A stretch of DNA of 64,000 nt from a virus. A program made the translations under genes and the position numbers. The notes below the pieces were generated by a model. It did not search any database. It was not told the origin of the DNA and saw only the letters and a program-made list of their open reading frames with translations. Of the stretch, positions 2,872-27,580 are shown one piece after another. The stretch spans positions 62,001 through 126,000 of IMG/VR virus record IMGVR_UViG_3300021963_000023; one strand, given 5' to 3'. The stretch's first letter is position 1. Each line of letters starts with the position of its first letter.

Positions 2872-4890
2872 TTATATAATCTTCGTTTTTATCAATAATT
2901 TTTCTTTAAATGTAATTTTTAGGGGTGTGTTTTCTTTAATATTACCCTTTAAAATTTCATCACTAAGAAAATCTTCACAAAGAGATTGAATAATTCTTTT
3001 GATTGGTCTGGCTCCATACTGCTCATCTTTGTTTCTTTTAGCAATTTCACTCATAACACTAGCATCGAAGGTAATAAAATATTTTTTCTCATTTAAACGA
3101 TCTGTTAAACGATCCATTTCAAGTTTTATAATCTTCTTAATTGCTTCTTCACCTAATGGATTAAATAAAACTATATCATCGATTCTATTCAAGAACTCAG
3201 GATTGAATTGTTGCTTAAGCGATTTCTGAATAATTGTTTTTTTAACTTCATATTGTTGATTCTCACTACTACTAGTATTAAACCCAACACCACCACCAAA
3301 TTCTGATACTTTTTTAGCACCAATATTTGATGTCATAATAATCAATGTATTTGTGAAGTTTACTTTCCTACCAAATGCGTCGGTTAAATGACCTTCGTCT
3401 AGTATTTGTAACAATAAATTAAACACATCCTTGTGCGCCTTTTCTATCTCATCAAATAAAATCACAGAAAACGGATTATTCTTAATTTTTTCTGTTAATT
3501 GACCACCCTCTTCATAACCAACATAACCTGGAGGTGACCCAATCAATCTAGATACCGTATGCTTTTCCATGTACTCACTCATATCAACACGAATAACATT
3601 ATCTTCTGATCCAAAAATCAATTTAGATAATGTTTTTGCTAGATATGTTTTACCAACACCGGTAGAACCAAGAAATATAAAAGAACCAATTGGTTTTTTG
3701 CTATCTTTAATTCCAACCCTATTTCTTCTAATTGATTTAGATATTGTAGTAATCGCTTCGTCTTGGCCAATAACCCTTTCTGATAATTTAACTTCTAAAT
3801 TTATTAAATTAGAAACCTCATTACTATCCATTTTAGAAATTGGGATACCAACCATACTCGATACCATATCATAAACATCATCAACACTAACTGGTATTAA
3901 CGAATCGTTTTGTTTAGCTAACCATTTAGCCTTTTCATCATCTAATTTTTTGATGACCTTTTTTTCTTCGTCTCTTAGTTTTGCGGCTTCTTCATAAACT
4001 TGTTTTTTAACAACTTCATGTTTCTTTTCTTTAATTGTTTCAATTTCTTTTTTTAATTTCTCAATTATTTCAGGGACCTTTGTTACAACACGCTTTTCTG
4101 AACCTAATTCATCTAAAACATCAATAGCTTTATCTGGAAATTGTTTATCTGTCATAAATCTTCCTGATAATCTTACTATTGTTTCAACAACCTCATCACC
4201 ATATGATACTTTATGAAATCCCTCATATGATTTTTTTAAATTTTTTAAAATCTCAACCGTTTCGTCTTCAGTTGGTTCTTTTAAAATAATTTTTTGAAAT
4301 CTTCTTACTAGGGCACCGTCTTTTTCAATATGTTTTTTGAATTCATCAAATGTTGTTGCACCAATACATTGCATTTCACCTCTTGCTAATGCAGGTTTTA
4401 AAATATTAGCCGCATCCATTGAACCAGAAGCATTTCCAGCGCCAACCATCGTATGTATTTCATCAATAAAAACAATAACATCGGGATTTTCCTGTAATTC
4501 ATGTAAAATGGCTTTAATTCTCTCTTCAAATTGACCTCGATATTTTGTACCTGCGACTAACGAAGTTAAGTCAAGTGATACTAATCTTTTATCAATTAGA
4601 TTAGATGGGCAATCTCCCTTAGATATCATTAATGCCAGTTTTTCAACTAATGCAGATTTACCAACACCAGCTTCACCAACAATAATCACATTATTTTTTT
4701 TCTTTCTTGAAAGGATTTGCGCAATTCTTTTAACTTCTTTATCCCTACCAATAACTGGATCAATTTTATCTTCTTCTGCTAACTTAATTAAGTCTCTAGA
4801 AAAATTGTCTAATATTGGTGTGTTTGAATTAACTCTTTTGTTTTTAGGGTTAGTTCTGGGGTTTTCTTCATAACCAAATTCTACTGCCAT
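2872..4890 (-). CDS. clpC: ClpC-like AAA+ unfoldase lacking the N domain
   Basis: Two-ring Hsp100 ATPase of 672 residues. The first AAA+ module has Walker A GEAGVGKS near 72-79 and Walker B VFIDEIH near 139-145. A short ClpC-type middle segment with a UVR-like EEAAKLRDEE follows near 299-308. The second module has Walker A GSTGVGKT near 407-414, Walker B ILFDEIEKAH near 476-485, and sensor-2 GARP near the C-terminus. The usual two Clp_N repeats are absent: residues 1-25 are a short polar stretch. A VGF tripeptide near 534-536 sits where ClpC and ClpA carry the ClpP-docking loop, so partnership with host ClpP is plausible. It is divergent from Hsp20 and preceded by a canonical Bacteroidota promoter, suggesting early expression by host polymerase. 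Confidence 0.92.
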   Translation of the reverse strand: MAVEFGYEENPRTNPKNKRVNSNTPILDNFSRDLIKLAEEDKIDPVIGRDKEVKRIAQILSRKKKNNVIIVGEAGVGKSALVEKLALMISKGDCPSNLIDKRLVSLDLTSLVAGTKYRGQFEERIKAILHELQENPDVIVFIDEIHTMVGAGNASGSMDAANILKPALARGEMQCIGATTFDEFKKHIEKDGALVRRFQKIILKEPTEDETVEILKNLKKSYEGFHKVSYGDEVVETIVRLSGRFMTDKQFPDKAIDVLDELGSEKRVVTKVPEIIEKLKKEIETIKEKKHEVVKKQVYEEAAKLRDEEKKVIKKLDDEKAKWLAKQNDSLIPVSVDDVYDMVSSMVGIPISKMDSNEVSNLINLEVKLSERVIGQDEAITTISKSIRRNRVGIKDSKKPIGSFIFLGSTGVGKTYLAKTLSKLIFGSEDNVIRVDMSEYMEKHTVSRLIGSPPGYVGYEEGGQLTEKIKNNPFSVILFDEIEKAHKDVFNLLLQILDEGHLTDAFGRKVNFTNTLIIMTSNIGAKKVSEFGGGVGFNTSSSENQQYEVKKTIIQKSLKQQFNPEFLNRIDDIVLFNPLGEEAIKKIIKLEMDRLTDRLNEKKYFITFDASVMSEIAKRNKDEQYGARPIKRIIQSLCEDFLSDEILKGNIKENTPLKITFKEKLLIKTKII

Positions 4891-5053: not shown

Positions 5054-5422
5054 ATGATTACATTATTTAAAGATCCATTCTTCGATGCGTTTGATAAAGT
5101 ATTAGATGCATCTCGCTACAATGTTAGCCCACAAACTAATATTCACAAAACAGAAAGTGAATATAAAATCTCAATGTCAATACCTGGTTTAACCAAGGAT
5201 GACTTAAAGATTACCATAAAAGATGGTGTTTTAAGAATCTCTTTTGAAAAGGATGAGAAAAACGAAAGAACACATTTCATTGGTAATTTTATAAAATCTT
5301 ATACAATACCTGATGATGTTAAAGAAAAAGATGTTATGGGTAATGTTGAGAATGGTGTATTGACATTGACACTACCAATCGATAAAAAGAAATCGATTGA
5401 GAGGCTCATTTCTCTTAATTAA
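5054..5422 (+). CDS. Small heat-shock protein (Hsp20/alpha-crystallin)
   Basis: A 122-residue ATP-independent holdase. A short N-terminal arm (residues 1-28) leads into an alpha-crystallin domain from about 30 to 118. Signature elements are YKISMSIPGLTKDDLKITIK, which matches the conserved opening strands, and the closing GVLTLTLP. The C-terminal IXI-type tail is short. Hsp20 genes are known in T4-like cyanophages, where they are thought to protect folding or assembly of virion proteins. The gene is divergent from clpC, making a two-gene proteostasis module, and ends in a strong terminator. Confidence 0.92.
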   Translation: MITLFKDPFFDAFDKVLDASRYNVSPQTNIHKTESEYKISMSIPGLTKDDLKITIKDGVLRISFEKDEKNERTHFIGNFIKSYTIPDDVKEKDVMGNVENGVLTLTLPIDKKKSIERLISLN

Positions 5423-10418: not shown

Positions 10419-10426
10419 TATTTATA
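10419..10426 (+). promoter_or_regulatory. TATTTATA late-promoter candidate (terL)
   Basis: An exact octamer with only 3 nt to the terL ATG at 10430. If it is a -10 box, the transcript would be leaderless or nearly so. Confidence 0.6.
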
Positions 10427-10429
10427 TAT

Positions 10430-12217
10430 ATGAGTCAAAAAATAGAACAATTAAAAGAGTATGCTCGCATAATAAAAGATACTCCATACGCACTTAAAAC
10501 ATATCTTCAAACCTTTGATAATACACAGAGAAAGTTTGTACCATTAGAGTTGTTTCCGGATCAAATACAATTATTAAAAGATTACGAAACATATAACGAG
10601 AATATCACAAGAAAATATCGTCAAGCTGGTGTTACAACAGTAACGGCCGCATGGTTATCAAAAAAATTACAATTAGCAAAACCAGAAAACCCAGAAAGGG
10701 TTTTGATTATCGCAAACAAGCGTGATACCGCAATTGAGATGGCGAATAAAGTTCGTCACTTTTTAGATCAATGGCCAGAATGGATTAATGTGGGGTTTTC
10801 ACCAGATAAAAATTCAGAAAGTAGATTTAGGTTAAATAACGGATCAGAGGTAAAAGCTGTGGCCACATCTGCGGATGCTCTTCGTGGTTTTACACCAACG
10901 ATATTAGTATTTGATGAGGCCGCGTATATTGAGGCTGGAGATGACTTCTGGGCGGCTTCTATGGCCTCGTTATCAACCGGTGGTAAGATTATATTAATCT
11001 CAACGCCAAATGGCTACGATCCAATTTATTACGGTGTTTATGAACAAGCAATAAGAGGTATTAATGATTTTCATATAACCGATTTAAGATGGTTTAAAGA
11101 TCCTAGATATACTAAAGATTTAGTTTGGATTAAAGTTCCCGATATTGTGCATTACATGTTGAACAGAGAACAATATAATGATGATGAGATTATTTTAAAG
11201 GAATTTGATATAACAAAATACCAAGAATTAATGGATGAGGGTTATCAACCATATTCAAATTGGTTTGAGTCCATGTCCAAAAAATTCAAATATGACAAAA
11301 GAAAAATAGCACAAGAACTTGAATGTGATTTCTTGGGTTCCGGTGATAGCGTTATACCAAATGAAACAATGGAAAAAATCGCTAAAACAATGGTTAAAGT
11401 ACCAAAAGAAAAATATATGCAAGGTTTGCTTTGGCAATGGAATGAACCAGTTCAGGGTCATAGATATATTATGGGAGTTGATGTTAGTAGAGGAGATAGC
11501 GAGGATTTTTCATCAATTAATATTATTGATTTTGATGAAAGGGAGCAAGTTGTTGAATATGTTGGTAAAATGCCACCAGATGATTTAGCATCTGTCGCTT
11601 ATAAATGGGGTGTATTATATGATGCGTTTATTGTAATTGATATAACAGGTGGTATGGGTGTTGCAACATCAAGAAAATTGCAAGAAATGAATTATAAAAA
11701 CTTATTCATTGATGGTATTAATACCAAGAATGTTTGGGAATATAATGCAAAAGCAATGGAAAAAATACCTGGTATTAATTTTAACAATAAAAGAACACAA
11801 ATAGTTTCAGCATTTGAGGAACAATTGAGACATGATTTTATTGTTAGATCACATAGGCTTTTAAATGAACTCAATACCTTTGTTTATATAAATGGTAGAC
11901 CGGATCACATGAAAGGACAACATGACGATTCTATTATGAGTTTAGCAATTGCGTTATATGCTGGAGAGATATCGTTTACACAATTAGTTAGAAATGAACA
12001 GCAAAACAAAGCAATGTTAGATTCTTGGGTTATGTCTGAAAGAACATATCAATCGCCACAAACAGAAACATACTCATATGGTACTAGCTTTGATCAGGTT
12101 GGTATGATGCAGATTGATAGTTCACCATATGCTAAGAGTAATACTAACGGAACGCCAGCAAAAGAACAGTACAATCAATATTCTTGGTTGTTTGGAACAA
12201 ATAAAAAGGCTTTATAA
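10430..12217 (+). CDS. terL: Terminase large subunit (gp17-like)
   Basis: DNA-packaging motor ATPase and headful nuclease, 595 residues from the ATG at 10430. The in-frame ATG at 10394 lies inside the terminator hairpin and is rejected. The ATPase part has RQAGVTT at 64-70 in the Walker A position, which lacks the usual lysine, Walker B ILVFDEA near 158-164 and a coupling-type ISTPNG near 190. The C-terminal nuclease starts with YIMGVDVSRGDSEDFS near 343, whose aspartate begins the RNase H-like site, with further acidic residues in VIDITGG and HDDSI. Length is close to T4 gp17 (610). Portal follows directly, as in T4. Confidence 0.95.
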   Translation: MSQKIEQLKEYARIIKDTPYALKTYLQTFDNTQRKFVPLELFPDQIQLLKDYETYNENITRKYRQAGVTTVTAAWLSKKLQLAKPENPERVLIIANKRDTAIEMANKVRHFLDQWPEWINVGFSPDKNSESRFRLNNGSEVKAVATSADALRGFTPTILVFDEAAYIEAGDDFWAASMASLSTGGKIILISTPNGYDPIYYGVYEQAIRGINDFHITDLRWFKDPRYTKDLVWIKVPDIVHYMLNREQYNDDEIILKEFDITKYQELMDEGYQPYSNWFESMSKKFKYDKRKIAQELECDFLGSGDSVIPNETMEKIAKTMVKVPKEKYMQGLLWQWNEPVQGHRYIMGVDVSRGDSEDFSSINIIDFDEREQVVEYVGKMPPDDLASVAYKWGVLYDAFIVIDITGGMGVATSRKLQEMNYKNLFIDGINTKNVWEYNAKAMEKIPGINFNNKRTQIVSAFEEQLRHDFIVRSHRLLNELNTFVYINGRPDHMKGQHDDSIMSLAIALYAGEISFTQLVRNEQQNKAMLDSWVMSERTYQSPQTETYSYGTSFDQVGMMQIDSSPYAKSNTNGTPAKEQYNQYSWLFGTNKKAL

Positions 12218-12250: not shown

Positions 12251-12258
12251 TATTTATA
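12251..12258 (+). promoter_or_regulatory. TATTTATA late-promoter candidate (portal)
   Basis: An exact octamer, continued as TATTTATATAGT, 4 nt before the portal ATG. Confidence 0.6.
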
Positions 12259-12262
12259 TAGT

Positions 12263-14065
12263 ATGGCGAATCAAGATTTGACAGTTTTTCAGAAATTAAC
12301 TAAAATATTCGGCTTTCAGAATAAAGGAGAGCAGAGCCCATCTTTTAACTTTTCGAGAGAAGAGTTACTTAAGACCGATGACCCAGTTGAATTTGAAAAA
12401 GCAAGATTACAAGCACAACAATCCCAGTATCTTTTTGATAAGTGGGCTAAATTGGATAATTCATTATATAACCAATCGGTATATTATGAACCAAACAGAT
12501 TAGCAGCTTATTATGATTATGAGTCTATGGAGTTTACTCCAGAGGTATCTGCCGCGTTAGACATTTACGCAGAAGAATCAACAACAGTTTCAGAAAAGGG
12601 ATATATTTTAAATGTGTACTCTGAATCAAAAAGAGTAAAAAATGTTTTAATAGATTTATTTGAAAATAGATTAGATATTAACACTAACCTACAAATGTGG
12701 GCTAGAAACGTATGTAAGTATGGTGACAACTTTGTTTATCTAAAGAGTGATCCAGAAAGAGGTATTGTTGGTTGCCAACAATTACCAAACATTGAAATTG
12801 AAAGAATTGAGGGTGCACAATCAAAAAATCCAACTGCTGGCGATATAAAATCTCCGATTCGCGAATTGCGATTTCAGTGGAAAAACAAGGATATGGAGTT
12901 TCAATCTTGGGAGCTTGCTCACTTTAGATTATTAGGTGATGATAGAAAGTTACCCTACGGTACTTCTATGTTAGATAAGATTAGAAGAATTTGGAAACAA
13001 CTTTTACTTGCTGAAGATGCTATGTTAATTTATAGAACATCAAGGGCACCTGAAAGACGCGTATTTAAAATATTTGTTGGAAACATGGATGATAAAGATA
13101 TCGAACCATATGTACAACGTGTTGCAAATAAATTTAAAAGAGATCAGGTAGTAGATAGTAGAAACGGTCAGGTGGATATGAGATATAACCAAATGGCTGT
13201 TGATCAGGATTATTTTATTCCTGTTCGTGATCCTGCAGCTCCTAGTCCAATTGAAACATTAGCTGGCGCACAAAACTTAGGTGAAATTGCGGATATCGAA
13301 TATATTCAAAAGAAGCTATTGGCAGCACTTCGTATTCCTAAGGCATTCTTAGGTTTTGAAGAGGTTGTTGGTGATGGTAAGAATCTTGCATTAATGGATA
13401 TTCGTTTTGCAAGAACCATTAATAGAATACAAAAGTCTTTAATACAAGAGTTAAATAAAATAGCATTAATTCATTTATATCTTTTAGGTTTAGAAGATGA
13501 ATTAGAGAATTTCACATTAGGTTTAACAAACCCATCTTCACAAGCAGATTTATTAAAGGTCGAGCAATGGAAAGAAAAAGTTACCTTATACAAAGACGCC
13601 ACTTCAGATCAATCTCAAATTGGTATATTACCAGTATCACATACTTGGGCTAAGAAAAACATTCTTGGTATGAGTGATAATGAAGTATTGTTAGATTTAC
13701 AACAACAACGTCTTGAAAGAGCTATGGGTACCGAATTACAAAACACAGCACAAATTATCAGAAGATCTGGTGTATTTGACGAAGTGGATAATAAATATGG
13801 TATACCTGAAGAGGAAAGAGCTAAGATAGAAGCACAGGCACCAGAAGGTGGTGAAGAGGGTGCATTAGGTGGTATGTCATCACCTACCCCAGCGGCCGCG
13901 CCATCTGGAGAACCATCAGAACCATTAAGTGAAAGAAAGAAATTTAGTAAGATTAGAAGTGTTTTAGGAGAATCTCAAGAAAATGATGATTTGTTTAATC
14001 TTGAAAAGGCACAGAAGAATATTTATGAAATAGAGAATAAATTGAACGACATTTTAAACGATTAA
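12263..14065 (+). CDS. gp20: Portal protein (gp20-like)
   Basis: A 600-residue portal vertex protein, the dodecameric channel through which terminase threads DNA. T4 gp20-type features include YDYESMEFTPEVSAALDIYA near 90-109, ARNVCKYGDNFVYLKSD near 144-160, and the AHFRLLGDDRKLPYGTSMLD region near 215-234. The C-terminus carries a long Glu/Pro/Gly/Ala-rich flexible stretch followed by a charged helix. It is slightly longer than T4 gp20 (524), mostly through this tail. It is flanked by terL and the protease/scaffold/capsid genes. Confidence 0.94.
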   Translation: MANQDLTVFQKLTKIFGFQNKGEQSPSFNFSREELLKTDDPVEFEKARLQAQQSQYLFDKWAKLDNSLYNQSVYYEPNRLAAYYDYESMEFTPEVSAALDIYAEESTTVSEKGYILNVYSESKRVKNVLIDLFENRLDINTNLQMWARNVCKYGDNFVYLKSDPERGIVGCQQLPNIEIERIEGAQSKNPTAGDIKSPIRELRFQWKNKDMEFQSWELAHFRLLGDDRKLPYGTSMLDKIRRIWKQLLLAEDAMLIYRTSRAPERRVFKIFVGNMDDKDIEPYVQRVANKFKRDQVVDSRNGQVDMRYNQMAVDQDYFIPVRDPAAPSPIETLAGAQNLGEIADIEYIQKKLLAALRIPKAFLGFEEVVGDGKNLALMDIRFARTINRIQKSLIQELNKIALIHLYLLGLEDELENFTLGLTNPSSQADLLKVEQWKEKVTLYKDATSDQSQIGILPVSHTWAKKNILGMSDNEVLLDLQQQRLERAMGTELQNTAQIIRRSGVFDEVDNKYGIPEEERAKIEAQAPEGGEEGALGGMSSPTPAAAPSGEPSEPLSERKKFSKIRSVLGESQENDDLFNLEKAQKNIYEIENKLNDILND

Positions 14066-14067
14066 AA

Positions 14068-14817
14068 ATGAACAAATTCGGAACGATTAAAACCAAAATG
14101 TTAACTAAAATAACTGAATCTTATTCTAAACAAAATAAGAATGAAGTAAAAGATATGTTAAACACAATTAAAGAAAACAAAGCATTTAAAGAAATGTATT
14201 TGTTTTATGAAGAAATTGAGAATAAATATTTTGACAATAAAGAGATCGCGATACTATATGTTGAGGGATTAAATACATATTTTGGTCAACCAATGGGTAA
14301 TTGGAATGATTTAAATGTCTTTTGCGAATCACTACATAAAAAATTGGGGGATATTAAAATTGAAACTAACGAACTATATGAATCTTTAGATATATTATCT
14401 GAAAAAGATTCATTATCAAATATTGAAAAAAAGGTTATTGCAAAAAAGAAACTAGTTGAACATTTAACAACAAAAAAGTCAGTAAAAACCATTGTTGAGG
14501 ATAGTACATATACAGCAAATGAAAATTTGTTGCATGCGGTATTAGTAAACAATTTTAACACATTATATGAGAATACATTATCTCAAGAAGATAAAGAAGC
14601 TCTTAAAAACATATTAGTATTAAATGGTGAGGAGTTGGTAACAAAAACATCTGAACTAAAAGAAGCTATCCTTACTAAGGTTCAAAATATACTATCAGAA
14701 TCTAAGGATACTGATTTAGGTGTAAAACTTGAATCAGTTAGAACTGAGGTTACCACAATGGAACCATCAAAATATAACTACTACAGATTAACACAATTAA
14801 AAAATGGTCTTGATTAA
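14068..14817 (+). CDS. Helical protein in the gp67/68 position
   Basis: A 249-residue, Lys/Glu-rich, almost entirely helical protein starting 2 nt after the portal stop. In T4 the small prohead core genes 67 and 68 lie between portal and protease, so a prohead-core role is suggested by position only; no sequence match is claimed. Its stop codon lies in the loop of a bidirectional terminator shared with the convergent bS21 gene. Confidence 0.55.
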   Translation: MNKFGTIKTKMLTKITESYSKQNKNEVKDMLNTIKENKAFKEMYLFYEEIENKYFDNKEIAILYVEGLNTYFGQPMGNWNDLNVFCESLHKKLGDIKIETNELYESLDILSEKDSLSNIEKKVIAKKKLVEHLTTKKSVKTIVEDSTYTANENLLHAVLVNNFNTLYENTLSQEDKEALKNILVLNGEELVTKTSELKEAILTKVQNILSESKDTDLGVKLESVRTEVTTMEPSKYNYYRLTQLKNGLD

Positions 14818-14834
14818 TTCAGACCATTTTTTAA
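14801..14834. terminator. Bidirectional terminator between convergent genes
   Basis: AAAATGGTCT (14801-14810) and AGACCATTTT (14821-14830) form a 10-bp stem. A/T runs on both sides make it work in both directions. The loop holds the overlapping stop codons of the plus-strand helical protein (14815-14817) and the minus-strand bS21 gene (14814-14816). Confidence 0.85.
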
Positions 14835-15005
14835 CTTTTCCACATAAACGGCTTTTAATACTTCGGCTCTTCTTTTAACTGAAGGCTTAACAAACTTTTC
14901 TCTTTCCCTTAGTTTTTGGATTTGTTTAGTTTTTTGTACTTTACTTTTGTAACTTTTAAGAGCAGATTCAATGCTCTTTTCTTTTTTCATGTCAATTATA
15001 ATCAT
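14814..15005 (-). CDS. rpsU: Ribosomal protein bS21, phage-encoded
   Basis: A 63-residue basic protein matching bacterial bS21 along its length. SIESALKSYKSKVQKTKQIQ corresponds to the conserved first helix. LREREKFVKPSVKRRAEVLK matches the R-R-x-x-F-x-K-P-S pattern, and the Bacteroidota version in particular (KPSV-x-x-RAE-x-x-KA-x-Y). bS21 sits near the 16S 3' end on the small subunit and in Bacteroidota helps sequester the anti-Shine-Dalgarno. A phage copy could remodel host ribosomes late in infection. It runs against the surrounding head operon, has its own TATTTATA box 4 nt upstream and shares a bidirectional terminator. No Shine-Dalgarno precedes it. An in-frame ATG at 14990 is an alternative start. 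Confidence 0.85.
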   Translation of the reverse strand: MIIIDMKKEKSIESALKSYKSKVQKTKQIQKLREREKFVKPSVKRRAEVLKAVYVEKLKNGLN

Positions 15006-15009
15006 AATT

Positions 15010-15017
15010 TATAAATA
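15010..15017 (-). promoter_or_regulatory. TATTTATA late-promoter candidate (bS21)
   Basis: On the minus strand the exact octamer lies 4 nt before the bS21 ATG. It gives this lone reversed gene its own late-type signal. Confidence 0.6.
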
Positions 15018-15104
15018 TTTTTATTTAAATTTTTGGAATATTAAGAAATTTTTCTTATTTTTTACTATATCACCATAATATAAGTAAAATTATGAAAAAA
15101 ATTA

Positions 15105-15533
15105 ATGAAAATTGGAAAATTTATTCCATTAGAAGACCACAAGGATGTAAAAGTTGGTTATGGAACAGTAGATTTTAAAAATCTAAAGACCATTTATGTA
15201 AAAATGAATGCCTGGGTAGAACCAGATAATGAAAACGAAAATTTTGATAAAACAATCTCTAAAGCAAGAAAGAAGATAAAAGACTTCATTCGAGACTATA
15301 ATTTAGGTGAAAACTTTAAAAAAGAAAGTATTGTAGATTTAGACATTAGAACAAAGGGAATTAAATTAAATAAAAGGTCATTTATGAATCTAGAGATCAC
15401 TTTATTTGTTGATAAATTTTTTGATGTTAAGAGTATTTTAATTAAGAATTTACTAAAAAAATTCACTAGTGAGTCAATAGATCTGTGTTTAGGGGATAAA
15501 ACATTATTCAATTTTAATAAAACTAAGATTTGA
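15105..15533 (+). CDS. Hypothetical protein between portal and protease
   Basis: A 142-residue alpha/beta-looking, Lys/Phe-rich protein (TIYVKMNAWVEPDN, then several basic helices ending LFNFNKTKI). An ATG at 15092 is in another frame and gives only 28 codons, so 15105 is preferred. No family is recognised. Position between portal and protease makes a head role likely. Confidence 0.5.
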   Translation: MKIGKFIPLEDHKDVKVGYGTVDFKNLKTIYVKMNAWVEPDNENENFDKTISKARKKIKDFIRDYNLGENFKKESIVDLDIRTKGIKLNKRSFMNLEITLFVDKFFDVKSILIKNLLKKFTSESIDLCLGDKTLFNFNKTKI

Positions 15534-15547
15534 TTTAATTATCCTTG

Positions 15548-15555
15548 TATTTATA
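15548..15555 (+). promoter_or_regulatory. TATTTATA late-promoter candidate (protease)
   Basis: An exact octamer, continued as TATTTATATGG, 20 nt before the protease ATG at 15576. Confidence 0.6.
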
Positions 15556-15575
15556 TGGTATATTAATATATCATA

Positions 15576-16265
15576 ATGAAAGTATTAGGGCCTAATGAAT
15601 CTGGAAGAGGACTATTGATTGAGTATGACGCAGGTCACATATCTCCAGAAGAGTTAAAAAACAAAAACATAATAACAGAAATACAGAATAAGGATACTGA
15701 TCAAGATCTTATTCTGTATGCTGTTTTACAAAAATATGATACCCCCAATAAGAACGGAAGGATTTATCCTGAATCGTTACTTAAAAGGGAAAATGACAAG
15801 TATCAACAAATAATCAGTAAAGGTTCGGCACTTAACGAACTTAATCATCCATCATCATCACTTATTGATTTAGATAGAGTTTCCCACACAATTACAGAAA
15901 CGTGGTGGGATGGTAGAACCCTAATGGGTAAAATTAAAATATTAACATCTCCAGGTTGGAAAAAAATGGGGATTGTTAGTTGTAAAGGTGATCAAGCAGC
16001 CATGCTACTTATAAATGGCGTTACATTAGGTATTTCTTCAAGAGGCGTTGGTTCATTAAAACAAATAAAAGGACAGAACATTGTACAAGATGATTTTGAA
16101 TTGGTTTGTTTTGATTTGGTATCATCACCATCAACACCAGGAGCTTACGTCTTTCAAGACATGGCTGATAAAGATAAATTCAACGAAACTATTGAAGAAA
16201 AGCCAACAATGGATAACAGATTAAAAAAATTAATGGGTAACCTAGACACTTTTCTTAAGAGATAA
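15576..16265 (+). CDS. gp21: Prohead core protease (gp21-like, S78)
   Basis: A 229-residue serine protease that matures the prohead by cutting scaffold and capsid proteins. The catalytic histidine is in ELNHPSSS near residue 90 and the nucleophilic serine in LGISSRGVG near 152, in the order and spacing of the S78/herpesvirus-fold protease family. An N-terminal NKNGRIYP segment near 66 is also typical. Length is near T4 gp21 (212). The following gene is the scaffold, its expected substrate. Confidence 0.92.
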   Translation: MKVLGPNESGRGLLIEYDAGHISPEELKNKNIITEIQNKDTDQDLILYAVLQKYDTPNKNGRIYPESLLKRENDKYQQIISKGSALNELNHPSSSLIDLDRVSHTITETWWDGRTLMGKIKILTSPGWKKMGIVSCKGDQAAMLLINGVTLGISSRGVGSLKQIKGQNIVQDDFELVCFDLVSSPSTPGAYVFQDMADKDKFNETIEEKPTMDNRLKKLMGNLDTFLKR

Positions 16266-16329: not shown

Positions 16330-16337
16330 TATTTATA
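16330..16337 (+). promoter_or_regulatory. TATTTATA late-promoter candidate (scaffold)
   Basis: An exact octamer, continued as TATTTATATAG, 20 nt before the scaffold ATG at 16358. Confidence 0.6.
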
Positions 16338-16357: not shown

Positions 16358-17554
16358 ATGAGCGAAAAATCGATTTTAGAACAAGCACTACTTCAAGTTA
16401 ATACACTTGAAGAAGCAGTAAAGCAAAATGCAAAAGGTATACTTTCTTCAGTAATGAAGCAAGAACTAAACGAATTGCTTAAAGAATCAGAAGAAGAGGA
16501 AGAAGCAGCAGATGCTGTTGATCCTGAAACAGAGGAAAACGACATGTCAGAGCAGCCAGCAGATGATGAAGATGCAGCTGATGATGAAGATGAAATCCCC
16601 TCGATAAATGATGAACCATCAAAAGATATCGATGGTGAAGACGAAGAAGAAGAAGACGATGAGTTTTCTACTGACGACGAATCACCTGAAATGGAAGACG
16701 ATGAGTTTCCATCTATGGATGATATGGCATCAGATGATGACGATACATTAGACATGACAGGAGCCGCAGATGATGAGGTTCTAAAGGTGTTTAAAGCAAT
16801 GTCAGATGAAGATGGTATTATCGTTAAAAAAGATGGTAACAACATTGAACTTACAGATGCTGATGATGAGTACATTATTAAGTTAGCAGAATCAGAAGAA
16901 GAGGAAGAAGAAGAAATGTCTGAAGACTCTTATCAAGAAGGCGCTAAAGATGATGTTGCAGACGAAGAAACTATCTATGAGATTGAGTTAGACGACGAAG
17001 ACGAAGAAGAAATGTCTGAAGAAGATGTTCCTGCTGAAGAGGAAGTTGGCGAAGCTGCTCATACTAAGTGGAACGTACATGGTGGTAAAAGAGCTGGATT
17101 AACAAGCAAAAAAGTTTTTGCGGCCGGTGCTAAAAATGAAACAAAAAAAGCATCAAAAGCAATTAACGAAGAAGTTGAAAATCTTAGAAAACAAAATGGC
17201 GAATATAAAAAAGCGTTAATTCTGTTTAAAGATAAATTAAACGAAGTTGCTGTATTCAACGCTAACCTTGCTTATGCAACTAGACTATTTACTGAACATT
17301 CAACAACAAAACAGGAGAAATTGAATATTTTGAAGAAATTTGATTCAATCTCTACTATAAACGAATCTAAAAATCTTTACAATTCTATCAAAGCAGAATT
17401 AGACACTAAAAAACCAGTGACTGAGACTGTAGCAGGTAAAATTGCTAATACAGCATCAACATCTTCTTCTCAAGAAGTTTTATCTGAGTCAAAAGCTTAC
17501 GAAGCCCCTCAGTTTAAGAGAATGAGAGATTTGATGAGTAAATTAAATAAATAA
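16358..17554 (+). CDS. gp22: Prohead scaffold core protein (gp22-like)
   Basis: A 398-residue scaffold candidate. An N-terminal helix (1-45) leads into an extremely acidic Asp/Glu/Ser region (about 46-230), then a basic segment KWNVHGGKRAGLTSK near 231, and a predicted coiled coil (about 265-345). Position between the gp21-like protease and the major capsid gene, and helical/acidic character, match the T4 gp22 role. The acidic part is much larger than in T4 gp22 (269 residues). Assignment is by position and composition. Confidence 0.75.
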   Translation: MSEKSILEQALLQVNTLEEAVKQNAKGILSSVMKQELNELLKESEEEEEAADAVDPETEENDMSEQPADDEDAADDEDEIPSINDEPSKDIDGEDEEEEDDEFSTDDESPEMEDDEFPSMDDMASDDDDTLDMTGAADDEVLKVFKAMSDEDGIIVKKDGNNIELTDADDEYIIKLAESEEEEEEEMSEDSYQEGAKDDVADEETIYEIELDDEDEEEMSEEDVPAEEEVGEAAHTKWNVHGGKRAGLTSKKVFAAGAKNETKKASKAINEEVENLRKQNGEYKKALILFKDKLNEVAVFNANLAYATRLFTEHSTTKQEKLNILKKFDSISTINESKNLYNSIKAELDTKKPVTETVAGKIANTASTSSSQEVLSESKAYEAPQFKRMRDLMSKLNK

Positions 17555-17580: not shown

Positions 17581-19314
17581 ATGGGAGCATTATTAGAATC
17601 AGGTATGGTAGGTAACATCGGTTTAAAACACCTTAGAGTTATCAAAGAAGATACCATCAAAAAATGGGATGACTTAGGATTCCTAGAAGGCCTAGACGGT
17701 CATCAAAAAGATAACATCGCGCAATTGTATGAAAACCAAGCGTCTTACTTAATCAACGAAGCAGCAGTTTCTGACGCTTCTGGTTCTTTCGAGACAGTGG
17801 TATTCCCAATTATCCGCCGTGTATTCTCTAAATTATTAGCAAACGATATCGTTTCTGTACAAGCAATGAACTTACCAATTGGTAAATTGTTCTACTTCGT
17901 ACCTAAAATTCAAGAAAGACAATCAGGCGCACACACTGCACCTTATGGTATGCCAGGTAATTCTGACGCATCTACCTTAGGTTATAGCACTGGTACCAAC
18001 GATCCAAGAAGTTTATATGATCGTTTTTACGAAGCAAATGATGCTGCTGATACTGGTATCTATGATTATTCTAAAGGAGCTTACTCTGCAGTAACTTTAA
18101 CAGGTGCTACAGTTGTAACTTTCGCTAACGGAGCAACTACAGATGTAGCTAACGCTAACGTAACAGGTACTTCAGTTTCTGACTTAATCATTAAATTCAC
18201 AGGATTTGCAAAAGATGGTCAAGGTAAATTAATCGGGCCAAATGGTTCTGTAATGGATACTGAAGATTTCTTAGCTTCTGCTGTAGTTAACTACGCAGGT
18301 GTAGCAAGAAACTTTAACATTGTTACACAAAAATATGGTAAAGGTATTGTTGAATATGGTCAAAAATCAACTTCAGCATCATATCCTTCAGGAAGATACC
18401 AAGATATTTGTGATGAAGAAGGTACAATTTACATAAAAGTAGATTTACAATCTTACAGCGCAACTTCAGGTTTCTCTAACCTTACTGTTCCTTCAGGTTT
18501 CACTTCAGCTGGTGTAACATTAGTTTTCAGAGTTTACGATTCATTAGAATTTGAAGATCAAATTGGTGAAGTATCTTTTGATTTAGCTTCTGTAACAGTT
18601 TCTGTAACTGAAAGAAAATTAAGAGCTAGCTGGTCTCCAGAATTAGCACAAGACGTTTCTGCGTTTCATAACATCGATGCTGAAGCTGAATTAACAGCTT
18701 TATTATCTGAGCAAATCGCTGCTGAGGTTGACCGTGAAATTTTACGTGACCTTAGAAAAGGTGCTGCTTGGACTGCTAAGTGGGATTATAACGAGTGGAA
18801 ATATGGTGCAACTGGAAGCACTCCGTTCATGGGTTATACTCAGAAGGATTGGAACCAAACATTGGTTACTAAAATTAACCAATTATCAGCTCAAATTCAC
18901 AAGACTACATTAAGAGGTGGTGCAAACTGGATCGTTGTTTCTTCAGAAGTTTCTGCAGTATTCGATGATTTAGAGTATTTCCACGTATCTAATGCAGGTC
19001 CAGAGCAAGATCAGTACAACATGGGTATCGAGAAAGTTGGTACACTTGCTGGACGTTATCAAGTATACCGTGATCCATACTTACCAGCAGGTAAGATCCT
19101 TGTAGGTCACAAAGGTAAGTCACTATTAGACGCAGGTTATATCTACGCTCCATATGTGCCGTTACAGTTAACTCCAACAATGTACAATCCATTTAACATG
19201 ACTCCGATCAAAGGTATCATGACACGTTACGCAAAGAAAATGGTGAACAACCGTTACTTCGGTGTAATCAACGTAAGTGGTTTACAAACGTTCGATATGA
19301 ATACTTTAAGATAA
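17581..19314 (+). CDS. gp23: Major capsid protein (gp23-like)
   Basis: A 577-residue HK97-fold capsid protein. The N-terminal delta-like segment (MGALLESGMVGNIGLKHLRV) precedes NEAAVSDASGSFETVVFPII near 58-77, the usual start of the mature domain. SVQAMNLPIGKLFYF near 97-111 is a strong gp23 signature. Residues about 130-300 include a Thr/Ala/Gly-rich region, probably an insertion domain. The C-terminus (YAKKMVNNRYFGVINVSGL) is also typical. Codon choice looks more ordered than in neighbours, as expected of a highly expressed gene. No octamer precedes it: it is probably read from the scaffold promoter and ends in a strong terminator. Confidence 0.94.
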   Translation: MGALLESGMVGNIGLKHLRVIKEDTIKKWDDLGFLEGLDGHQKDNIAQLYENQASYLINEAAVSDASGSFETVVFPIIRRVFSKLLANDIVSVQAMNLPIGKLFYFVPKIQERQSGAHTAPYGMPGNSDASTLGYSTGTNDPRSLYDRFYEANDAADTGIYDYSKGAYSAVTLTGATVVTFANGATTDVANANVTGTSVSDLIIKFTGFAKDGQGKLIGPNGSVMDTEDFLASAVVNYAGVARNFNIVTQKYGKGIVEYGQKSTSASYPSGRYQDICDEEGTIYIKVDLQSYSATSGFSNLTVPSGFTSAGVTLVFRVYDSLEFEDQIGEVSFDLASVTVSVTERKLRASWSPELAQDVSAFHNIDAEAELTALLSEQIAAEVDREILRDLRKGAAWTAKWDYNEWKYGATGSTPFMGYTQKDWNQTLVTKINQLSAQIHKTTLRGGANWIVVSSEVSAVFDDLEYFHVSNAGPEQDQYNMGIEKVGTLAGRYQVYRDPYLPAGKILVGHKGKSLLDAGYIYAPYVPLQLTPTMYNPFNMTPIKGIMTRYAKKMVNNRYFGVINVSGLQTFDMNTLR

Positions 19315-26881: not shown

Positions 26882-27580
26882 TTATTCTAAAAATCCACCT
26901 AAAACACCGTCATATAAAAGTTTATATCTTTTAAGGGATATTCTAATTTCTTTTGTTGATAATGATGTCATCTCTCTTAGAGACAGGAGGATTAAATTCT
27001 TATTGAACTTATTGCCATCACCTATTTGAAATATTTGGTCAAAATTGCTAAATATTTCTAAGAGGGCATAGCCTAGTTTTTTCTCATTATCCGTTAGATC
27101 TTCTTTTTCAATAAAATCTTCCAATTTGTTGGTTAGATTGATTATAACATTGGTATAATCTATATGATACTCATCAATTGTATATGAAAACTCAACCCTG
27201 CTTTCAATATCTTCAGATATGTCCTCATATGAAATACTCCTATTTTGCTCCTTGGTATCTTTTTGGATTGCCCCCATTAAGTAGTTCTTACAAATGGTTC
27301 CAAAATAGGAATAGGCTTTGTGGTTTTTTGTGTGATCAAACTTGTTGATCTTAGTTATTAAAAAAGACATGGTATCAGTATGAATCTCTTCAAATTCCAT
27401 GTCTTTTCTGTATAGTTTATAACGTCGAATAATTGATTCGACCATTATAATTAGGGGTTCACGTAAATATTCGTTGAATATCTTATTCCTTTCCGCATCG
27501 TCAGTACTTTCTAAGTATTTAACTACTGCCTTTTCTTGATCCTCCCCAAAATAAACTTTTTGGGTTCTTTTTCTTGGCAT
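26882..27580 (-). CDS. gp55: Late sigma factor, gp55-like
   Basis: A 232-residue sigma70-family protein. EEIHTDTMSFLITKINKFDH near 63-82, with YSYFGTICKNYLMGAIQKD near 89-107, corresponds to sigma region 2, the core-binding and -10-recognition part. Region 4 is not clear, as in T4 gp55, which lacks -35 recognition. In T4, gp55 directs host RNA polymerase to TATAAATA late promoters with the sliding clamp as activator. Here it would be the natural reader of the TATTTATA boxes. It lies between a glycosyltransferase gene (1-base overlap) and the coiled-coil gene. Confidence 0.78.
   Translation of the reverse strand: MPRKRTQKVYFGEDQEKAVVKYLESTDDAERNKIFNEYLREPLIIMVESIIRRYKLYRKDMEFEEIHTDTMSFLITKINKFDHTKNHKAYSYFGTICKNYLMGAIQKDTKEQNRSISYEDISEDIESRVEFSYTIDEYHIDYTNVIINLTNKLEDFIEKEDLTDNEKKLGYALLEIFSNFDQIFQIGDGNKFNKNLILLSLREMTSLSTKEIRISLKRYKLLYDGVLGGFLE

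Follow-up and report, generated by a model that had tools for sequence, protein, structure and literature searches.

A phage-encoded bS21 gene with a late-type promoter box, no extended Shine-Dalgarno sequence and a terminator in its coding end

bS21 has been described as the commonest ribosomal protein carried by phages (PMC9976891). The closest described systems are five clades of Bacteroidetes phages, for which the account by Chen et al. 2022 (PMC9723584) gives a bS21 gene on the reverse strand at exactly the position considered here, bS21 transcripts that are high together with those of late genes, and an aromatic residue 54; according to the hypothesis put forward there, late in infection the phage copy takes the place of host bS21. 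In Bacteroidota, bS21 also controls the anti-Shine-Dalgarno (anti-SD) and its own synthesis: when it is mutated or depleted in F. johnsoniae, the anti-SD becomes accessible and rpsU is translated more strongly via an extended Shine-Dalgarno (SD) sequence (McNutt et al. 2023, PMC9976891). Initiation on SD-less, A-rich leaders together with bS21 is the normal state in the Bacteroidota host (PMC6847099, PMC9976891). In another group, the bS21 of a pelagiphage has been shown to be incorporated into 70S ribosomes of E. coli (Mizuno et al. 2019, PMC6375957).

Here we describe a bS21 gene in a 64,000-nt stretch of a viral metagenomic record (the window). As far as the account by Chen et al. goes, the phage group, the gene position, late expression and the takeover idea are known (PMC9723584). 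The core claim of the original prediction, a phage bS21 that is expressed late, and the ribosome swap are therefore not new, although late expression, reported for this very phage group, supports the claim. In the available part of that account of the bS21 phages we found no promoter, no missing SD and no coding terminator. New, to this extent, are the TATTTATA promoter with its bimodal spacing, the absence of an extended SD and the terminator in the coding end.

The bS21 gene and its neighbourhood

The gene encodes a bS21 of 63 aa, MIIIDMKKEKSIESALKSYKSKVQKTKQIQKLREREKFVKPSVKRRAEVLKAVYVEKLKNGLN (Table 1). Its product matches PF01165 (Ribosomal_S21) at model positions 2-52 of 55 with 43.8 bits (cut-off 27) and the F. 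johnsoniae bS21 (7jil) end to end, over residues 1-62. The proposed identity along the whole length thus passed the profile comparison suggested for it. The expected KPSV-xx-RAE-xx-KA-x-Y section is also present, its Y54 is aligned with Y54 of F. johnsoniae, and by alignment the protein has the Bacteroidota-type core. Y54 presumably stacks on A1534, a contact taken from structure 7jil and transferred to the window protein by alignment. Among the 77 phage proteins of the tree set, residue 54 is Y in 73, H in one and F in one, while two were unread by the pattern. A pN/pS of about 0.21, determined over 50 relatives, shows purifying selection on the protein.

Relatives were collected as 80 loci fetched by the bS21 protein and 80 by the portal. 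In the comparison aimed at cultured phages, only six metagenomic records match, all at less than 50% identity. In the bS21 tree the window protein groups with the phage sequences and is separated from the host proteins sampled (support of the phage/host split 100/97), but this tree is coarse because the alignment is short, nearly all host proteins in it are from Flavobacterium and two long-branched phage proteins lie beside the host group.

As predicted, bS21 runs singly against the head operon: it is antisense to the genes for TerL, portal, protease, the scaffold-position protein and MCP and lies between TerL/portal and protease/MCP, an order common to most bS21-bearing relatives. Its 3' end overlaps by 4 bases with that of the convergent 249-aa gene. 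The PF01165 search revealed no second bS21 in the 251,149-base linear record, of which the window and six 20-kb stretches were used. Judged by profile, alignment and gene order, this is a real, conserved phage bS21 of the published phage group. Its placement in the head module could also fit a role outside the ribosome, either packaging into the virion with the head proteins, raised as a possibility in the account by Chen et al. (PMC9723584), or RNA binding. We consider such a role extremely improbable, as all ribosome-contact features examined are kept and no sequence feature points to another role.

Two related loci, L099 and L163, contain the portal, 249-aa, 142-aa and protease genes with no bS21 between them, and none was found elsewhere in these 12-kb and 38-kb records, which are genome fragments, so that a copy may lie elsewhere in the two genomes. 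The bS21 gene may be dispensable. Moreover, the presence of the 142-aa gene in both loci shows that its link with bS21 is not a strict one, as the two outgroups in the account by Chen et al. had suggested.

The 142-aa neighbour has a confident alpha/beta AlphaFold model (pLDDT 83.6), for which the structure search returned no named fold, no PDB match below 0.001 and a single viral match below 0.001, which is uncharacterised. By its position, it could presumably correspond to T4 gp68. It is a neighbour of the bS21_CN type on the opposite strand, its family was aligned, and from position, not from sequence, we infer that it is fam498 of Chen et al. The 398-aa gene has no family match and is gp22-like by position alone. 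A ClpA/B-like AAA+ ATPase (2872-4890, minus strand) and an Hsp20-like chaperone (5054-5422, plus strand) are encoded near the head module; a protease directed at host bS21 is among the things that McNutt et al. (PMC9976891) imagined such phages to encode. At 183-1866 on the minus strand, a T4-type RNA ligase (PF09511) and an ATPase resembling polynucleotide kinase are encoded side by side, an arrangement found in RNA repair pairs.

Table 1. Features of the bS21 locus and the candidate late sigma factor (window coordinates)
Feature	Position	Strand	Evidence or upstream box
bS21, 63 aa, Y54 kept	14814..15005	-	PF01165 2.1e-11; F. johnsoniae bS21 5e-13; pN/pS ~0.21
TATTTATA late-type box, 4 nt before bS21 ATG, leaderless geometry (predicted)	15010..15017	-	
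Bidirectional terminator hairpin; arms encode C-terminal NGL of both convergent genes	14795..14836	both	
Convergent head-region gene, 249 aa, no assigned function, ends KNGLD	14068..14817	+	
Divergent neighbour, 142 aa; position matches 'bS21_CN' in the account by Chen et al.	15105..15533	+	
Large terminase (TerL)	10430..12217	+	TATTTATA at 10419-10426, gap 3
Portal (gp20-like, T4-type)	12263..14065	+	TATTTATA at 12251-12258, gap 4
Prohead protease (gp21-like)	15576..16265	+	TATTTATA at 15548-15555, gap 20, leadered
398-aa scaffold-position gene	16358..17554	+	TATTTATA at 16330-16337, gap 20, leadered
Major capsid protein (gp23-like)	17581..19314	+	without own box
Late sigma factor of gp55 type, which may recognise TATTTATA	26882..27580	-	

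The late-type box and its distance to the start codon

Late transcription in phage T4 depends on the sigma factor gp55 and the box TATAAATA. Upstream of the window bS21, and in its sense, the element TATTTATA is found. Within 60 nt upstream, sense TATTTATA precedes 13 of the 56 called window genes, as compared to 1.4 +/- 1.2 (maximum 5) in dinucleotide shuffles and 2 in the reverse orientation, which bears out the late-type box predicted for bS21. In 401 distinct upstreams from the window and the bS21 loci, TATTTATA occurs 136 times against 9.8 expected, the expectation coming from simple shuffles and the related phages not being independent. In the same 401 upstreams, TATAAATA is rarer than chance (7 vs 16.6 expected). 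This enrichment identifies TATTTATA as a genuine, orientation-dependent promoter box of the late type. The T4 late consensus was rejected as the element, being below chance upstream, where it is TATTTATA, read in the direction of the gene, that is enriched; the possibility of a box facing the wrong way, TATAAATA on the plus strand, was dropped on the same grounds. A generic sigma-70 scan gave matches at chance (35 vs 34.9), and no clear -35 element is seen in the box logo. In a minority of the bS21 relatives the gap is 18 nt or no box is recognisable.

A candidate for the factor that reads this box is encoded in the window. The match of its product to the PHROG late sigma family is weak singly (0.0027), but 12 of 12 relatives match this family (best 3.4e-5) and all 12 also match Sigma70_r2 (Sigma-70 region 2; best 3.8e-5). 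The profile search against the PDB retrieved T4 gp55 (E=0.0014). This consistency over the relatives argues for a gp55-like late sigma factor, and we infer that it reads TATTTATA.

The distance between box and ATG is bimodal: in 919 distinct upstreams, 139 genes have a gap of 3-6 nt, 5 of 7-12 nt, 102 of 13-27 nt and 26 a longer one. It depends on the gene family, with 3 nt for TerL, 3-4 nt for portal, 4 nt for bS21, mostly 15-22 nt for the protease and 18-26 nt for the scaffold-position gene; the capsid gene and the 142-aa neighbour have no box. In the leadered genes, A is commonest 5-6 nt after the box. The -7 element of F. johnsoniae is 4-5 nt away from the transcription start (PMC6847099), and that of F. 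psychrophilum is located at -12 to -5 (PMC9723704). With this Flavobacterium spacing, a gap of 4 nt would place the transcription start on the A of the ATG, which agrees with the preference for A after the box in leadered genes. Thus, leaderless mRNAs are predicted for bS21, portal and TerL from their gaps of 3-4 nt.

These gaps of bS21, TerL and portal, the bimodal distribution and the rarity of leaderless mRNAs in the sampled host group (5.5%; PMC9723704) are in line with the further proposal of the original prediction that the phage bS21 shifts ribosomes toward leaderless or A-rich-leader late mRNAs. However, the close portal box is kept in the two loci which lack bS21 (gap 4 in L099, gap 3 in L163) and is therefore independent of bS21 at the locus. 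Furthermore, the leadered geometry is found for the protease unit and for the scaffold-MCP unit, the source of the most abundant product, the conservation of Y54 points to a normal bS21 role, and A-rich, SD-less leaders are the norm in the host. The proposal is weakened by these observations, and we regard it as improbable.

Three further observations concern the sequences around the start codons. In several relatives, namely L019 and related loci, the bS21 start codon is preceded not only by TACTTATA but also, at a distance of about 20 nt, by a host-type TATATTTG (TAnnTTTG), which suggests that a host-type and a late promoter stand in tandem there. In the spacer between bS21 and the 142-aa gene, a CCAAAA stretch (TTTTGG on the other strand) is conserved at 15020-15045 and in relatives and could be part of the promoter of the divergent gene. 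Finally, the called TerL start in L139 is directly preceded by AGAAAGGGGG, a strong SD-like sequence unusual in these phages, and this start may be miscalled.

A terminator inside the coding end

The terminator predicted to be common to the two convergent genes was found as a hairpin with -17.8 kcal/mol and z=-5.0 (Table 1), which spans the C-terminal codons of both bS21 and the 249-aa gene. Since the arms of the hairpin are reverse complements, both proteins end with KNGL. Among 80 distinct phage 3' ends, NGL is encoded in 63, each of which has a hairpin of -10 kcal/mol or lower; 14 ends have neither NGL nor hairpin, and 3 have a hairpin with DGL, DGP or DSL. In 60 of the 63 NGL ends the two 8-base arms pair without a mismatch, and 16 of the 19 NGL ends whose 5' arm differs from the commonest one show the corresponding change in the opposite arm. 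In a set of 50 sequences, the glycine codon of NGL is solely GGT or GGA and its leucine codon solely CTN, whereas the other leucines in the bS21 gene are mostly encoded by TTA or TTG. As to the loci without bS21, the 249-aa homologue in L163 does not end with NGL and has its own terminator past the stop codon; in L099 the end is still of the NGL type and has a separate hairpin.

In the account by Chen et al. 2022 (PMC9723584), the C-terminal conservation is read as a sign of ribosome function. The NGL residues are encoded by a terminator arm and synonymous changes are mirrored in the other arm, thus their conservation need not reflect ribosome binding. The terminator would be a sufficient alternative explanation for the last residues, not for Y54. 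Caution is warranted, as the conservation of the phage bS21 C-terminus may largely be a constraint at the DNA level.

The missing Shine-Dalgarno and the possible action of phage bS21

In 32 distinct Flavobacterium rpsU upstreams, the predicted duplex with the anti-SD in the 16S tail has a mean of -19.7 kcal/mol (range -18.4 to -22.8); in 38 distinct phage bS21 upstreams the mean is -1.5 kcal/mol (range -6.5 to 1.8; shuffled -0.6). SD matches in these 38 upstreams are never longer than 5, and none longer than 5 was found for a further 35 phage bS21 proteins. Upstream of the window gene, the longest match is 3 and the duplex has +1.6 kcal/mol, so an extended SD is missing. Thus, the extended SD is present in every Flavobacterium rpsU sampled and in no phage bS21, in a host comparison which is almost all Flavobacterium and may not include the host of this phage. 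Host rpsU comes under feedback through this element; the phage gene, which is devoid of it, probably escapes such control.

Based on these observations, the most likely action, with a probability of roughly 0.5, is that the phage protein replaces or supplements host bS21 late, outside the host feedback. The phage bS21 would be transcribed late from TATTTATA, probably by the host RNA polymerase with the gp55-like sigma factor, as a probably leaderless mRNA, and the protein would occupy the bS21 site in 30S subunits of the host. As Y54 is retained, the anti-SD would still be buried and SD-independent initiation maintained, which the phage mRNAs would need, since they show no SD signal above chance. 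Lacking the extended SD, the phage gene would supply bS21 outside the host feedback. The phage bS21 would fill bS21-free ribosomes and thereby keep host rpsU translation off, which would favour replacement. It is tempting to speculate that this takeover is self-reinforcing, with host autoregulation shutting off rpsU and the pool drifting to phage bS21 without an exchange factor or protease, but we hold this only tentatively; McNutt et al. (PMC9976891) propose the reverse, namely that host autoregulation would replenish host bS21.

Alternatively, phage bS21 in place of the host protein could create specialised ribosomes, which would prefer phage mRNAs owing to changes in the N-terminal helix (residues 21-28) that lies over the path of the mRNA, as proposed by Chen et al. 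2022. The alignment shows consistent divergence at these residues between the phage segment KxKVQKTKQIQ and the host segment KRKFDKTGTVR, the phage sequences are separate from the sampled host sequences in the tree, and late co-expression is given in the account by Chen et al. (PMC9723584). However, phage genes overall are at chance for SD, with no excess over shuffles, and in the host, too, A-rich leaders without an SD are the rule (PMC6847099). We therefore saw no signal that distinguishes phage mRNAs, and such specialisation is possible at well below even odds. A plain top-up, in which extra bS21 completes ribosomes during heavy late synthesis without selectivity or an effect on rpsU, would agree with the retained Y54 and overall fold residues, the purifying selection and the lack of a host feedback element, but would leave the divergence of residues 21-28 unexplained; we consider it rather unlikely. 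The replacement or top-up outside host feedback thus remains our preferred reading.

Compared with known systems, late transcription resembles that of T4 in the gp55-like sigma factor, the AT-rich box of -10 type that stands singly before late genes and the lack of a clear -35 element; it differs in the box, which is TATAAATA in T4 and TATTTATA in this phage, where TATAAATA is depleted. With Pelagibacter phage HTVC008M (PMC6375957) this phage shares a phage-encoded bS21, but phage and host belong to other groups; entry into E. coli 70S ribosomes was demonstrated for the HTVC008M protein, while ribosome entry is predicted for the window protein. The phages in the account by Chen et al. (PMC9723584) have in common with it the reverse-strand bS21 between TerL/portal and protease/MCP with two flanking hypothetical genes, the Bacteroidota-type protein in which residue 54 is aromatic, a low GC content, the head genes of a myovirus and no other bS21 in the record; their complete genomes comprise 293-331 kb, as compared to a linear record of 251 kb here. 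The F. johnsoniae bS21 (7jil; PMC9976891) matches over the length of the fold and shares the KPSV core and Y54, but it has about 47% identity to the window protein and another C-terminus. Moreover, its gene rpsU has the extended SD for autoregulation while the phage gene is devoid of it, and it is this clean contrast between host and phage genes that bears on autoregulation.
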